The notes below the pieces were generated by a model. It had not been told where the DNA came from. It ran no database searches and worked only from the letters and a program-made list of their open reading frames with translations. Shown piece after piece: positions 1,078-9,005 of a stretch of 24,791 nt of DNA (positions are counted from its first letter, which is position 1; every line of letters begins with the position of its first letter). The stretch spans positions 1 through 24,791 of IMG/VR virus record IMGVR_UViG_3300028844_000008. The stretch is one strand, 5' to 3'. A program made the position numbers and the translations under genes. Source of the DNA: a virus.

Positions 1078-1106
1078 TTGACATTAAGTGGGACCCTCCG
1101 TATAAT
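1078..1106 (+). promoter_or_regulatory. Perfect consensus sigma70 promoter for the packaging/structural operon
   Basis: TTGACA (1078-1083) and TATAAT (1101-1106) are both exact consensus hexamers, separated by the optimal 17 bases. The predicted start is near 1112-1114, which gives a leader of about 385 nt before terS. It points rightward into the long run of co-oriented late genes, and it follows a hairpin that would insulate it from upstream transcription. The hexamers are read directly; activity and timing are inferred. Confidence 0.8.
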
Positions 1107-1259: not shown

Positions 1260-1381
1260 TACATATATATATGTAGAGAGACATACTTAAGTATAATACT
1301 TAAGTTTTAAACTTATAAATATATATACATATAGATTATAAACTTATAAATTATTATTAGTAAGTATAATACTTAAGTATA
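1260..1381. repeat. AT-rich array of palindromes and direct repeats
   Basis: Bases 1261-1380 contain only 18 G or C in 120 (15%). Within this block there is a 16-bp perfect palindrome TACATATATATATGTA (1260-1275), the 12-bp palindrome ATACTTAAGTAT twice (1283-1294 and 1369-1380) with a third partial copy ATACTTAAGT at 1296-1305, an 18-bp exact direct repeat TAAGTATAATACTTAAGT (1288-1305 and 1361-1378), and TAAACTTATAAAT twice (1308-1320 and 1339-1351). It lies in the leader of the packaging operon, 115 bases before terS. Candidate roles are the TerS binding part of a packaging site, a replication origin or DNA-unwinding element, or operator sites; sequence alone does not decide between them. 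Confidence 0.65.
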
Positions 1382-1396: not shown

Positions 1397-1475
1397 GTTG
1401 ATCTCATTCAACCAGAACAAACTGTACCAATAGCTCACTTGACAGAGTAAAGTTCTGCCGATGAGTGGGATCAAC
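1397..1475 (+). ncRNA. 79-nt extended hairpin in the leader of the terminase genes
   Basis: The arms 1397-1410 (GTTGATCTCATTCA) and 1462-1475 (TGAGTGGGATCAAC) pair over 14 positions, 12 Watson-Crick and 2 G-U. Inside, CAGAAC (1413-1418) pairs with GTTCTG (1452-1457), and CTGT (1422-1425) can pair with ACAG (1442-1445), giving a three-tier stem with a 16-nt apical loop. It ends 21 bases before the terS ATG. The two G-U pairs mean the structure is better as RNA than as a DNA inverted repeat, which favours a cis-acting leader RNA; a cos or pac element remains possible. No known riboswitch class is recognised. Confidence 0.5.
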
Positions 1476-1496: not shown

Positions 1497-1895
1497 ATGG
1501 ACAAGAAACCACCACTCCCTTACAGTGAACTTGTTGCTAAGAAGATAAAGGATGGCATCCGTAATGGTGTGTCTGTAAAAGACATCATGGGATCTATTCA
1601 GAAATATCAATATGCTCCTAGTTCTACTGCTACGTTGTATAAAATCTATGGAGAGTTGATTGCCGAAACTCGTGCTGATGTTGTTGGACAAGTCGGCTCT
1701 GTTATTGTGCAGCAAGCTCTAGATGGTGATTTTAAAGCTGCAGAGTTTTACCTACGTTCTAAAGGTGGTTGGTCACCTACACAGACAATCAATGAAGTTG
1801 AGCAATCAGAAGACCCCGATACTGATGAAGGTGCTATCGACACTTTGATGATGTTGTTAGGCAAGAATGATCCCGATGAAAATAACAGCGACTGA
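1497..1895 (+). CDS. terS: Terminase small subunit (DNA recognition)
   Basis: 132 residues. The N-terminal half (about residues 8-60) looks like a DNA-binding helical segment with VSVKDIMGSIQKY and SSTATLYKIYGEL. The middle holds ALDGDFKAAEFYLRSKGGW (about residues 75-93), which matches the A-x-FYL-x-KGGW element common in small terminases, where it belongs to the oligomerising core. The C-terminus is acidic, as is usual for the part that contacts the large subunit. Small terminases form rings that bind the packaging site and load the large subunit. The large subunit gene follows with a 29-base overlap, which supports the call. The SD is weak (taaag). The site it recognises may lie in the repeat-rich DNA just upstream. 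Confidence 0.8.
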   Translation: MDKKPPLPYSELVAKKIKDGIRNGVSVKDIMGSIQKYQYAPSSTATLYKIYGELIAETRADVVGQVGSVIVQQALDGDFKAAEFYLRSKGGWSPTQTINEVEQSEDPDTDEGAIDTLMMLLGKNDPDENNSD

Positions 1896-3237
1896 CCTTA
1901 GAGAAATATCCCCTGAGAAACTCAAGGAAGTTTTAGACCAACTAGGCCCAAAGAAAACAGAAGAACTCCAACACACTTGGGAGTTTTGGGCTAGACCAGA
2001 GCAACTAGAACCAAATGATGATTGGAATATCTGGATTGCTCTTGCAGGTCGAGGTTGGGGAAAGACTAGAGCAGGTGTTGAGTGGGTAAGACATCAAGTC
2101 AAAAGTGGAAAGAAGCGTATTGCTGCAGTTGCTCCTACTAACTCTGATATTCGTAGGGTTATGGTTGAAGGTGAATCAGGGTTTCTGAATGTTTGTTGGA
2201 AGGGCGATAAGACCTATCGTGGCGGTAGGTTGGGATACCCAAACTGGTCACCGACAAACAGGACACTCACATGGGAGAACGGAGCGAAAGTCGAGTTCTA
2301 CTCAGCGGAAGACCCAGAGAGATTACGTGGACCTCAGTTTCACGCAGCATGGGCAGACGAAGTTGCAGCATGGCGTAACCAACAAGATGTATGGGACATG
2401 CTACAGTTTACCTTACGACTTGGACGCAAACCAAGAGTGATGGTAACGACCACACCGAAGCCCACTAAATTAATGAGGGCTTTGATAGCTTCACCTCATA
2501 GCCACATTACTCGTGGTTCTACATTTGATAACATAGACAACCTTGCCAAACCTTTCCTTGAAACAATTAAAAAAGAATACGAAGGGACAAGACTTGGTAA
2601 TCAGGAACTCTATGCGGAGATGTTGGAAGAGGCTGATGGAGCTTTATGGACAACCGAAGTCCTCGACAAATGTACAATCGAACAAAAAGACATTCCCGAA
2701 CTAAATAGAATTGTTGTTTCAATAGATCCTGCTGTTACGTCTAAGACGGAATCTGATATGACAGGGCTTATTGTTGCAGGTATAGATGTGAATGGAATTG
2801 GCTATGTTCTTGAGGATGCAACAGATCGGTATAGCCCTGCAGAATGGGCTGCAAAAGCTATATCACTATATAAAGCACATAGTGCTGATCGTATTGTTGC
2901 AGAACGCAATCAAGGCGGTGATATGGTTCGCAGAACTCTTGAAGCAGAGGATGAAGCAGTTCCTATCAGGCTTGTACACGCCTCTAGAGGAAAAATGGCT
3001 AGGGCTGAACCTATATCTGCACTCTATGAGAGAGGCAAAGTTAAACATGCTAAAGGGTTGGACGAACTGGAAACGCAAATGAGAACTTGGGAGCCATTAG
3101 GCTCTATGGGTTCCCCAGATCGACTAGACGCTTGTGTTTGGGCCTTAACTGACCTTATGTTGAATGGCGTTACGAACCCTACGCTTCGCCTTTCCTATTC
3201 AAATGCTAAAGGTCTTAGCCAGATACACTTAGGATAA
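1867..3237 (+). CDS. terL: Terminase large subunit, packaging ATPase and nuclease
   Basis: 456 residues, the usual length for this family. The N-terminal ATPase shows Walker A GRGWGKT (residues 61-67), Walker B with the acidic pair D164-E165 (HAAWADE), and the coupling motif VTTTPKP (about 193-199). The C-terminal RNase H-like nuclease shows its acidic triad in SIDP (D287), VAERNQGGD (E346) and SPDRLDA (D418 or D421). The protein docks on the portal, pumps DNA into the procapsid using ATP and cuts the concatemer. The start at 1867 has AGGCAAGA upstream and overlaps terS; an in-frame ATG at 1876 is a less supported alternative. All catalytic residues are present, so it should be active. It belongs to the Terminase_6 type by motif pattern. 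Confidence 0.96.
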   Translation: MIPMKITATDLREISPEKLKEVLDQLGPKKTEELQHTWEFWARPEQLEPNDDWNIWIALAGRGWGKTRAGVEWVRHQVKSGKKRIAAVAPTNSDIRRVMVEGESGFLNVCWKGDKTYRGGRLGYPNWSPTNRTLTWENGAKVEFYSAEDPERLRGPQFHAAWADEVAAWRNQQDVWDMLQFTLRLGRKPRVMVTTTPKPTKLMRALIASPHSHITRGSTFDNIDNLAKPFLETIKKEYEGTRLGNQELYAEMLEEADGALWTTEVLDKCTIEQKDIPELNRIVVSIDPAVTSKTESDMTGLIVAGIDVNGIGYVLEDATDRYSPAEWAAKAISLYKAHSADRIVAERNQGGDMVRRTLEAEDEAVPIRLVHASRGKMARAEPISALYERGKVKHAKGLDELETQMRTWEPLGSMGSPDRLDACVWALTDLMLNGVTNPTLRLSYSNAKGLSQIHLG

Positions 3238-6027: not shown

Positions 6028-7614
6028 ATGGTAGGCTTTTCCCCATTAGCCTCTAGTGCTTTAGGTGATGATGGGGGCGTAGTCAACATAGAGCTAACGG
6101 CAAGTAATCTTGTCACGCAGCCACCCTCAGTAGCTAACGCAACGCTTACTGAAGACCACAGCTTAACAGCTACGTCATTTTCTACTGGGGCATCAGAGGT
6201 CAATCAGACAGACCTCACGCAGGATCACAGTCTTACAGCTACTGCGTTTACATCAGGAACTCCTGAAGTTAACCAAAGCACAGTAAGCCAAGATCATAGT
6301 CTAACGGCTACAGCTTTAGCAGCAAGTACGCCAGAAGTTAATCAGTCTACATTAACTCAAGTCCATGATCTAACAACGTCAGATATTCTTACAGGTAACT
6401 CTGTTGTGTCTGACTTGGCAATGTCAGAAGCAGAAACCTTCTCGACTACCGCCTTAGAAACAGATCCCCCCTCAGTTCCTAGTGTCACACTAGTACAAGA
6501 CCACGATCTAGGAACAGTCAGCTTCGAATCTGGCAATCCTGTTTTAGCTACTTTAGCTATTACCCAAATCCATAGCCTGACACCCGATGGATTTACTGCA
6601 GGAACATCTCTAGTAGCTAATACTACGCTTACTGAGATTACTCCGTTAACTGCAGATAATTTACTAAGTGGCGCTCCAAGCTTAGATAACACAAGCTTAA
6701 CACAAGTCCACGACTTAACGCCTAGCTCTATCGTCACTCCAGTACCTGACGTAGATGCTGCCACCGACCCAAATGCAATCCTCGCTCAAGAAACACAGGA
6801 AATAGAACAAATGATTGGTGGTTGGACACGCAGAGCATACGAGGTTCCTGACGGAAGACTTGTCCAAGGTGAGCGTGAAATACAACAGACTTATGGAGAC
6901 AAAGTCTCTATTGATCGTAAGGCAAAGTCTCTTGTTAAGTTTGGTCGTTCAGCACAGTTAGGGACAGGCAGTTTAGAAACGCTTTGGACTGTTGGTGGAA
7001 ATGAGACTTATCTTTCTACAAACTCTATTTCCCACATATCTTCATCCTCCGCATCTGATACGCAAGAAGTCACGATTGAAGGTCACACAATAAGTAATAA
7101 TGAGTTTACCTTTGTAATTCAAACAGCAACCCTAAATGGACAGAATACTGTTGCTCTTAATACAGACCTTGCTCGTGTATCTCGTATATACAACAGTGAT
7201 AGCACAGAATTCGTTGGTCGTGTTGTAGTATACGAAAATACCGCCCTATCAGGGGGAGTTCCTACAGACGAAACGAAAATACACATTGATATTCCTGCAG
7301 GATTTCAACAATCATTTAAAGCTGCAACTACTTTCAGTAAAAATGATTACTTTATTATGACAGGTTTCTATGGGTCGGTTAGTGCACGAACCTCTGGATC
7401 TGTAGACTTTTATCCTGAGATTAGGCAAGTAGGTAAAGTATTTAGACAGGCAGGTTGTTTTACAGGATCTACAAATGGAGGGTCAACAGAGATAGCTTTA
7501 GACCCACCTCTTATCGTACCTAAAAATGCTGATATTCGTATTCGATGTGAGACAGAAACTAATAACTTAGTCGTATTCGGCATCTTTAAAGGTTATATAG
7601 CCAAGGTTTTATAA
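6028..7614 (+). CDS. Large structural protein with nine 23-residue repeats, probable adhesin or head/tail fibre
   Basis: 528 residues with an AAAGG SD. After an 18-residue lead-in, residues 39-245 are nine consecutive 23-residue repeats of the form xLTQDHSLTATxFxxGxPxVxx; most carry a central Asp/Val-His pair (H44, H67, H90, H113, H159, H182, H228), while units five and eight have lost the His. Residues about 246-290 are charged and helical (ILAQETQEIEQMIGGWTRRAY), and 295-528 form a Ser/Thr/Gly beta-rich domain without recognisable catalytic residues. Repeats of this style occur in phage virion proteins of unknown role. The gene ends in TAATG overlap with the protease gene. Role in surface binding is inferred from composition and neighbours. 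Confidence 0.7.
   Translation: MVGFSPLASSALGDDGGVVNIELTASNLVTQPPSVANATLTEDHSLTATSFSTGASEVNQTDLTQDHSLTATAFTSGTPEVNQSTVSQDHSLTATALAASTPEVNQSTLTQVHDLTTSDILTGNSVVSDLAMSEAETFSTTALETDPPSVPSVTLVQDHDLGTVSFESGNPVLATLAITQIHSLTPDGFTAGTSLVANTTLTEITPLTADNLLSGAPSLDNTSLTQVHDLTPSSIVTPVPDVDAATDPNAILAQETQEIEQMIGGWTRRAYEVPDGRLVQGEREIQQTYGDKVSIDRKAKSLVKFGRSAQLGTGSLETLWTVGGNETYLSTNSISHISSSSASDTQEVTIEGHTISNNEFTFVIQTATLNGQNTVALNTDLARVSRIYNSDSTEFVGRVVVYENTALSGGVPTDETKIHIDIPAGFQQSFKAATTFSKNDYFIMTGFYGSVSARTSGSVDFYPEIRQVGKVFRQAGCFTGSTNGGSTEIALDPPLIVPKNADIRIRCETETNNLVVFGIFKGYIAKVL
6142..6762 (+). repeat. Nine in-frame 69-bp repeats encoding 23-residue units
   Basis: Spacing of the conserved His codons is exactly 69 bases between neighbouring units. 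Units 1-3 are most alike (DHSLTAT core) and later units have diverged, so the array expanded by duplication and then drifted. Because the divergence is large at DNA level, recombination between units should now be rare. Confidence 0.8.
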
Positions 7615-9005
7615 TGCCATATTCTAGTAACGCAGAACTTCCTAAAGCAGTAAGACAAACTGTACCAGAAGACAAGCATACACAATTTAGAAGAGTGTTT
7701 AATTCAGTGTTAGAAGATACTAAAAACGAACAGAGAGCCTTTCAGTCAGCTTGGGCTGCAGTGAAGAAACGTCAAATGGATGACGATATTTTTACTAGCC
7801 CTGCAGAAGCTCGTAGCAGATCCTTTATGTTAGGTTTTGATGGTGAAATCCATACCCATGAAGTTGGTGCTAATATCTATTATATGCCATCAAGAACGCA
7901 TGAGGAATACCTCAACTACCATAAAGAACTTGCAGGTATCAAAGAGATACCACAGGAGCAAGAAGAGAGCGAAGATGACCTCTTGGCTCGTATCTTATCT
8001 GTAGTTATTCAAGAAGTAACTAAAGTAGAAACTAGCACTCTTGCATCTAAAGTAAAAGAGCATAATGAAAAAAATGGTGGCAAGGGTAAGGTAACTACCT
8101 CTATGCTGCGTCAGGTTTATAATAGAGGTGTAGGCGCATATAAGACAAACCCATCATCGGTTCGTCCTAACGTCTCATCTCCCGAACAGTGGGCTATGGC
8201 TCGTGTCAACAATTTCTTACGCACCATCCGTACAGGTCGCTTCCGTAGTGGTAAGCATGATACTGATCTCCTACCTTCTAAACATCCTCTTAGTACAAGG
8301 AAGTCACAAGTATGGGATGGAGGCGATTTACCAACGCAGGAGCAAGTTGATAAAGCAGATAAGCCACTAAACAAACCCTTCAGACTTCCTAAAGGCTCAA
8401 GTAAGAAGTTTGGAGTTTATGTAAAGGACGGAGACAAAACCAAGAAAGTTACTTTTGGTGATCCTAATATGGAAATCCGTAGAGATGACCCCAAGGCTAG
8501 ATCTAACTTCCGTAGCAGACATTCTTGCGATACCGCATCAGATAAGACTTCTGCTCGTTATTGGTCTTGCCGTATGTGGGAGAAGGGTAGATCAGTGACT
8601 GATTTAACAAAAGATATCGAAGGCCAGATTCTAAAGACTGACGATGAACAGCGTATAGTCTACGGATGGGCCTCAGTCATTACTGAGAAAGGTGAACGAG
8701 TAGTTGACCGTCAGGGTGACGTAATCGAGCCAGACACGTTAGTTAAAGCCGTGAATGATTTCATGGAGAATGTACGTGTTGGCAAAACAATGCACACAGG
8801 CGAACAAACAGGGATGGTTATTCATTCCTTACCAATTACCAAAGAGATTGGTGATAGCCTTGGCATACAGAGTGATCGTGAAGGGTGGATTGTAGCTTAT
8901 AAAGTCTACGATGATAAAGTCTGGAACATGGTCAAATCTGGTGAACTTGCGGCCTTCAGCATTGGCGGTCGAGCAATTAAGGAGAAATTAGATGAACCTT
9001 CTTAA
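7614..9005 (+). CDS. Multidomain head maturation protease: ChaB-like, DUF5872-like and XkdF-like serine protease domains
   Basis: 463 residues. Residues 7-52 match the ChaB fold pattern (ELPKAVRQTVPEDKHTQFRRVFN then SAWAAVKKR). Residues 60-110 (FDGEIHTHEVGANIYYMPS) I cannot assign. Residues 160-202 hold SVRPNVSSPEQWAMARVNNFL, and 264-322 hold KKFGVYVKDGD, GDPNMEIRRDDPKAR and H303/C305/C319 in a SRHSCD...YWSCRMW arrangement, resembling DUF5872-type modules. Residues 333-455 resemble XkdF-type phage proteases (Peptidase_S78_2): IVYGWASV, a QGDVIEP segment, H394 in KTMHTGE, and GELAAFSIGG with S449. The enzyme would cleave scaffold and capsid during maturation; H394 and S449 are the best candidate catalytic pair, by inference. 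Start is TAATG coupled to the repeat protein; its end overlaps the scaffold gene by 14 bases. Confidence 0.8.
   Translation: MPYSSNAELPKAVRQTVPEDKHTQFRRVFNSVLEDTKNEQRAFQSAWAAVKKRQMDDDIFTSPAEARSRSFMLGFDGEIHTHEVGANIYYMPSRTHEEYLNYHKELAGIKEIPQEQEESEDDLLARILSVVIQEVTKVETSTLASKVKEHNEKNGGKGKVTTSMLRQVYNRGVGAYKTNPSSVRPNVSSPEQWAMARVNNFLRTIRTGRFRSGKHDTDLLPSKHPLSTRKSQVWDGGDLPTQEQVDKADKPLNKPFRLPKGSSKKFGVYVKDGDKTKKVTFGDPNMEIRRDDPKARSNFRSRHSCDTASDKTSARYWSCRMWEKGRSVTDLTKDIEGQILKTDDEQRIVYGWASVITEKGERVVDRQGDVIEPDTLVKAVNDFMENVRVGKTMHTGEQTGMVIHSLPITKEIGDSLGIQSDREGWIVAYKVYDDKVWNMVKSGELAAFSIGGRAIKEKLDEPS

Follow-up and report, generated by a model that had tools for sequence, protein, structure and literature searches.

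What is the structured hairpin that stands directly before the terminase genes of this phage, and what does it do there? The stretch analysed (the window) is a virus record of 24,791 bases, in which a sequence-only reading had described a 79-nt hairpin with a 14-pair stem and two G-U pairs, 21 bases before terS. Folding agreed with this description: the MFE of 1397-1475 was -26.8 kcal/mol compared with -14.0 +/- 2.8 kcal/mol for shuffled sequences (z -4.63), and none of 200 dinucleotide shuffles folded as low. The outer stem P1 was 14 bp long and included two U.G pairs, and 21 nt separated the hairpin end from the ATG at 1497. The same reading had proposed two further complementary segment pairs, of which P2 was recovered as a 6-bp stem while the third tier, P3, was weak and ambiguous in the window, the MFE structure pairing ACU with AGU and an alternative pairing CUGU with ACAG. 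The sequence of P3 varied in relatives, in which a short stem was usually kept. The features of the locus are as follows.

1078-1106, plus strand: sigma70-like promoter TTGACA-N17-TATAAT, a consensus match only (12/12), with predicted +1 at about 1113; candidate leader promoter.
1283-1380, plus strand: module A, an AT-rich palindromic inverted repeat with ACTTAAGTATA arms, between promoter and element; found alone in relatives such as L058.
1397-1475, plus strand: three-tier structured RNA element (module B), identified by MFE (z -4.6), a covariance-model family and double changes on the TerL tree.
1397-1410, plus strand: P1 5' arm, pairing with 1462-1475.
1411-1412, plus strand: 5' side of J1/2, AC, invariant in type I.
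1413-1418, plus strand: P2 5' arm, CAGAAC, pairing with 1452-1457, with compensatory changes at 4 of 6 pairs.
1419-1451, plus strand: J2/3, P3 (ACU/AGU or CUGU/ACAG) and the apical loop, which carries a conserved CUNNCC(A).
1419 and 1451, plus strand: the first and last base of the preceding segment, homopurine mismatch A1419.A1451, which is G.G or A.A across the family.
1452-1457, plus strand: P2 3' arm, from the fold.
1458-1461, plus strand: 3' side of J1/2, CCGA, which is YYGA in type I.
1462-1475, plus strand: P1 3' arm, from the fold.
1497-1895, plus strand: terS-like ORF, small terminase by position, with a weak fold match to Sf6 and PaP3 TerS.
1867-3237, plus strand: terminase large subunit (TerL), clear from Terminase_6N/6C.

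The putative terS owes its name mainly to its position: the window version had no Pfam or PHROG match, and the Sf6 and PaP3 small terminases were among the best PDB matches of its predicted fold (mean pLDDT 68), at a level that was not significant. Elsewhere in the window, the ORF at 147-893, just before the leader region, matched phrog_2554, which has a function-less label, and the ORF at 7614-9005 combined a ChaB domain with a phage serine protease domain (Peptidase_S78_2), its best PHROG match being labelled DNA methyltransferase.

We then asked whether the pairing has been maintained in evolution. TerL relatives were taken from viral contigs, and the same motif was present in their leaders. 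In a trimmed seven-sequence alignment (A2), 91.8% of cells were paired and 8 of 14 pairs were altered on both sides. The covariance model R1, built on the seven-sequence alignment, matched dozens of related leaders, among them that of the cultured Roseobacter phage CRP-6, and all strong scores fell on the terS strand. Across 38 distinct sequences, 93.9% of P1/P2 cells paired compared with 22-48% for slid-partner controls, and two-sided changes occurred at 11 of the 14 pairs; cells with such changes numbered 118 against a shuffled mean of 32, a value reached in none of 500 shuffles. Since this alignment had been fitted to the structure, a separate parsimony count was made on the TerL protein tree. 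The 14 P1/P2 pairs underwent 63 pair-preserving double changes, 27 single changes and 15 breaks, whereas slid partners showed 0-6 double changes and 71-80 breaks, all these counts being approximate owing to phage mosaicism. A covariance-model search of viral sequences was the check that the sequence-only reading had suggested, and the compensatory changes support its claim of RNA function. Furthermore, G.U combinations far outnumbered A.C combinations in the element's pairs (44 versus 10), which indicates that the element acts as plus-strand RNA. This comparative evidence for the hairpin is far stronger than the fold energy alone, and we regard it as very probable that the hairpin is a conserved cis-acting leader RNA element, in which evolution has maintained both the pairing and the internal loops.

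The element forms a single rod in which three helices are stacked, with a conserved internal loop at each of the two junctions. Its order is P1, the AC/YYGA internal loop (near invariant in type I), P2, which starts with an invariant C-G and A-U, the G.G or A.A loop-closing bases, the short P3 and the apical loop CUNNCC(A). The homopurine pair was matched (G.G or A.A) in 85% of cores compared with 48% after shuffling, a test in which the regular expression counted most cores twice and let in a few unrelated matches, so that independent cases are overstated. Several switches between G.G and A.A were seen on the TerL tree, and this co-switching argues, at the level of sequence comparison, for a specific three-dimensional fold. 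Because neither the loops nor the homopurine switch would be needed in a plain end-cap or spacer, something probably recognises the element. Many copies, in addition, carry TTGTCGTT-like words in their apical loops and flanks, and type II carries TTTGTAGTT.

The element sits before the DNA-packaging genes terS-terL in a widespread marine phage group, with one copy per record and no second copies in the same phage records. A terminase-independent DNA pattern scan returned at least 119 stretches, loci that were preselected by the pattern and whose E-values are not independent; among the matches listed and scored, 54 loci reached 30 bits or more, and each of them precedes a terS and/or terL that is homologous to the window's own. 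Four low-scoring pattern matches (L281, L300, L328 and L330) had no such terminase downstream and were treated as chance, and at a further match, L311, the stretch ends before the downstream region is complete. The element was absent where TerL relatives of 36-62% identity occur in bacterial genomes, most of them Sphingomonas, and among 50,697 phage records the close DNA match was CRP-6 only. Besides type I, we distinguished a type Ib (L007, L047 and L066), in which P2 is one pair shorter, and a type II (L028-L042 and L110), in which the apical part is kept and AC/YYGA is not. Model R2 bridged to type II at L034, L036, L037 and L170 (E 7e-7 to 1e-11), L036 being itself part of the alignment behind R2; model detection of type II is confident at these four, and the other type II leaders were assigned by eye.

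At gathering score, Rfam 15 gave no match for the window and 15 related loci, in line with the earlier remark that no described family came to mind, and permissive Rfam scans gave chance miRNA matches only, or nothing. No description of the element was found in the literature searched, most of it outside subscription journals. The element represents a new family among phage-leader RNAs, one that Rfam 15 does not contain. Its compact form and two conserved internal loops would also suit a small ribozyme that shortens the leader by self-cleavage, and the lack of a match at gathering score to known self-cleaving ribozymes in Rfam 15, in the window and the 15 related loci, excludes known classes only. 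However, J1/2, which type I conserves best of all, gives way to other sequence in type II, and there is no invariant catalytic core across all types, making a ribozyme very improbable.

We also considered whether the element belongs to the packaging machinery, either as a DNA packaging site (pac/cos) or as a packaging RNA working with terminase. Such sites often lie directly before terS, as the element does, and AT-rich palindromes adjoin it. All three ACTTAAGT palindromes of the window fall within 1283-1380, in paired arms, and ACTTAAGT words and ACTATAGT recur in the leaders of relatives; a late regulator or TerS may bind these words. A cos or pac site, however, acts as double-stranded DNA in which the strands are equal, whereas here plus-strand RNA pairing is preserved, with RNA-type covariation in which G.U exceeds A.C and with the homopurine switch. 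The distribution of the element bears on the same point. L106 and L058 share 95% identity in TerS, 97% in TerL and the upstream promoter region; L106 has the element, and L058 lacks both it and the hairpin that follows it in L106, L058-type leaders carrying a different AT-rich hairpin at a similar place. Type II leaders of the L110 type, moreover, occur with TerLs of a branch that otherwise has type I or module A only. Together these two observations indicate that the element is an exchangeable module, and comparison of the leaders shows it to be dispensable. A count of presence/absence changes on the tree was set aside here, since near-duplicates of L110 had by default been scored as lacking the element. 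Given the L106/L058 pair and the RNA-type changes, we consider both a packaging RNA and a DNA packaging site highly improbable, and the packaging role offered by the sequence-only reading is accordingly disfavoured.

Next we examined where the leader transcript would begin. The best promoter of the window lies ~290 nt upstream of the hairpin; type I leaders had no good sigma70 promoter just upstream of the element, the best ones lying mostly 210-370 nt upstream. In types Ib and II, by contrast, most leaders had a TTGACA-N16-18-TATAAT-like promoter, a consensus match, whose predicted +1 falls no more than about 3 nt from the hairpin. In the window, the interval 1061-1200 holds 4 of the 6 GATTCG/CGAATC words of the 24.8 kb, which we take to resemble the alphaproteobacterial GcrA/CcrM motif YGAKTCG; TGATTCG comes after the 12/12 promoter, and in L007 it separates the -35 from the -10 box of the promoter that immediately precedes the element. 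The proposal that the hairpin protects the 5' end therefore holds as a possibility for types Ib and II, with their predicted +1 at the hairpin, and not for the window, where no good promoter has its +1 there. An ordinary hairpin that does only this, with no specific recognition, would also agree with the different AT-rich hairpin at a similar place in L058-type leaders. Invariant loops and a co-varying non-Watson-Crick pair stand against it, and a 5' end-cap alone is insufficient because it would not need conserved internal loops; we consider it improbable.

A role in translation has stronger claims. In this reading the leader RNA sets the translation or stability of the terS or late mRNA via a bound phage or host protein, as an operator-like hairpin or a specific 5' stabiliser. 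In most leaders 13-42 nt separate the element from the start codon, in types Ib and II it coincides with the predicted 5' end, and its conserved internal loops suit a protein site. Simple masking of the ribosome-binding or start site, one form that the late-gene translation control raised by the sequence-only reading could take, was rejected: the start region is unpaired with the element in most leaders, and start-codon spacing varies between 13 and 219 nt (for L080 the figure is an artefact of start finding). The presence and absence of the element in L106 and L058, despite their near-identical terminases, speaks against TerS as an obligate ligand, and the evidence argues against TerS autoregulation. 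Control of translation or stability through a bound protein is nonetheless quite possible, at about a third of our confidence, nearly as much as we give to the elongation control that we favour.

Most likely, the element controls expression of the long late gene block. In the window this block is co-directional from 1497 to about 24.4 kb, and in CRP-6 the element heads co-directional genes from 41,977 down to 15,720, 26 kb without a strand change; the block behind the element thus spans 23-26 kb. CRP-6 has no annotated RNA polymerase gene, so the host polymerase must probably transcribe it. Our preferred reading, held tentatively and by analogy, is that the rod may be a cis-acting elongation or antitermination (put/nut-like) leader element of the late packaging and morphogenesis operon. 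The steps that we infer are these: once the leader is transcribed, the rod would fold; its two conserved internal loops would form a recognition surface; host RNA polymerase or an RNA-binding protein would bind the folded rod; and transcription would then pass through the 23-26 kb block without early termination. What inclines us to elongation control is the single, very long block behind the element and, in types Ib and II, the element's early place in the transcript. Two observations count against antitermination. The late block contains no strong intrinsic terminator, only weak candidates (23 on both strands, compared with 12.3 +/- 3.7 in shuffles), and relatives with near-identical terminase genes lack the element, whose function is therefore not essential in all of them. 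The region between element and terS has features of its own: in L106 a T-rich stretch follows a strong hairpin, TTCCCCCCAGC...GTTGGGGGGAA, that lies downstream of 2053, and the two together look like a possible terminator whose effect the element would need to override; the motif CTACCCAC(TATAGT)...TTTGTCGTT recurs there in L057, L080, L213, L224 and L226-L228. A more specific version is in our judgement unlikely. In it, the three-tier rod with its switching homopurine pair would found a new class of RNA antiterminators: by direct binding to alphaproteobacterial RNA polymerase, and with no need of a dedicated phage protein, it would render the whole late block terminator-resistant.

The element adds a well-supported family absent from Rfam 15, carried by phages whose cultured member, CRP-6, belongs to a group reported to be abundant in the ocean (PMC6918029). 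For phages that apparently transcribe a late block of >20 kb on host polymerase it offers a defined 79-nt target, and L106 and L058 are a natural pair of close relatives with and without it, ready for comparison.

Among known systems, phi29 pRNA resembles the element as a structured phage RNA with a positional link to packaging. It is, however, a separate trans-acting RNA and a required part of the motor, whereas the element is part of the terS leader, matches no Rfam family and is missing from L058 despite a near-identical terminase. Translational operator hairpins, such as those of RNA-phage coat protein and ribosomal-protein leaders, likewise have, a short way upstream of a start codon, a stem whose unpaired bases are conserved, but here the start codon is not occluded and the spacing is not fixed. 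In HK022, the put RNA, of similar size, binds polymerase via a structure with non-canonical pairs and bulges (PMC9378689). Like the element, putL and putR are cis-acting, about 70 nt long and near the head of a long phage operon, with internal mismatches and bulges and, in put's binding surface, non-canonical purine pairs. As with put, the element lies near the start of its transcript, at the head of the late block with predicted +1 either at the hairpin, in types Ib and II, or, in type I, as much as about 370 nt upstream. Whereas put forms two stem-loops in a V and serves the early operons of a lambdoid phage, the element is one rod in the late operon of marine phages; without the two-stem V, it is not a put member. 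Put contacts RNA polymerase at the zinc-binding domain of beta' and suppresses termination; by analogy, the element might likewise suppress termination. Lambda boxB is a short, small-looped hairpin, accompanied by a linear boxA. In lambda nut and other processive antitermination leaders, which stand where a long operon begins, a leader hairpin is recognised while transcription is under way, as we propose for the element.
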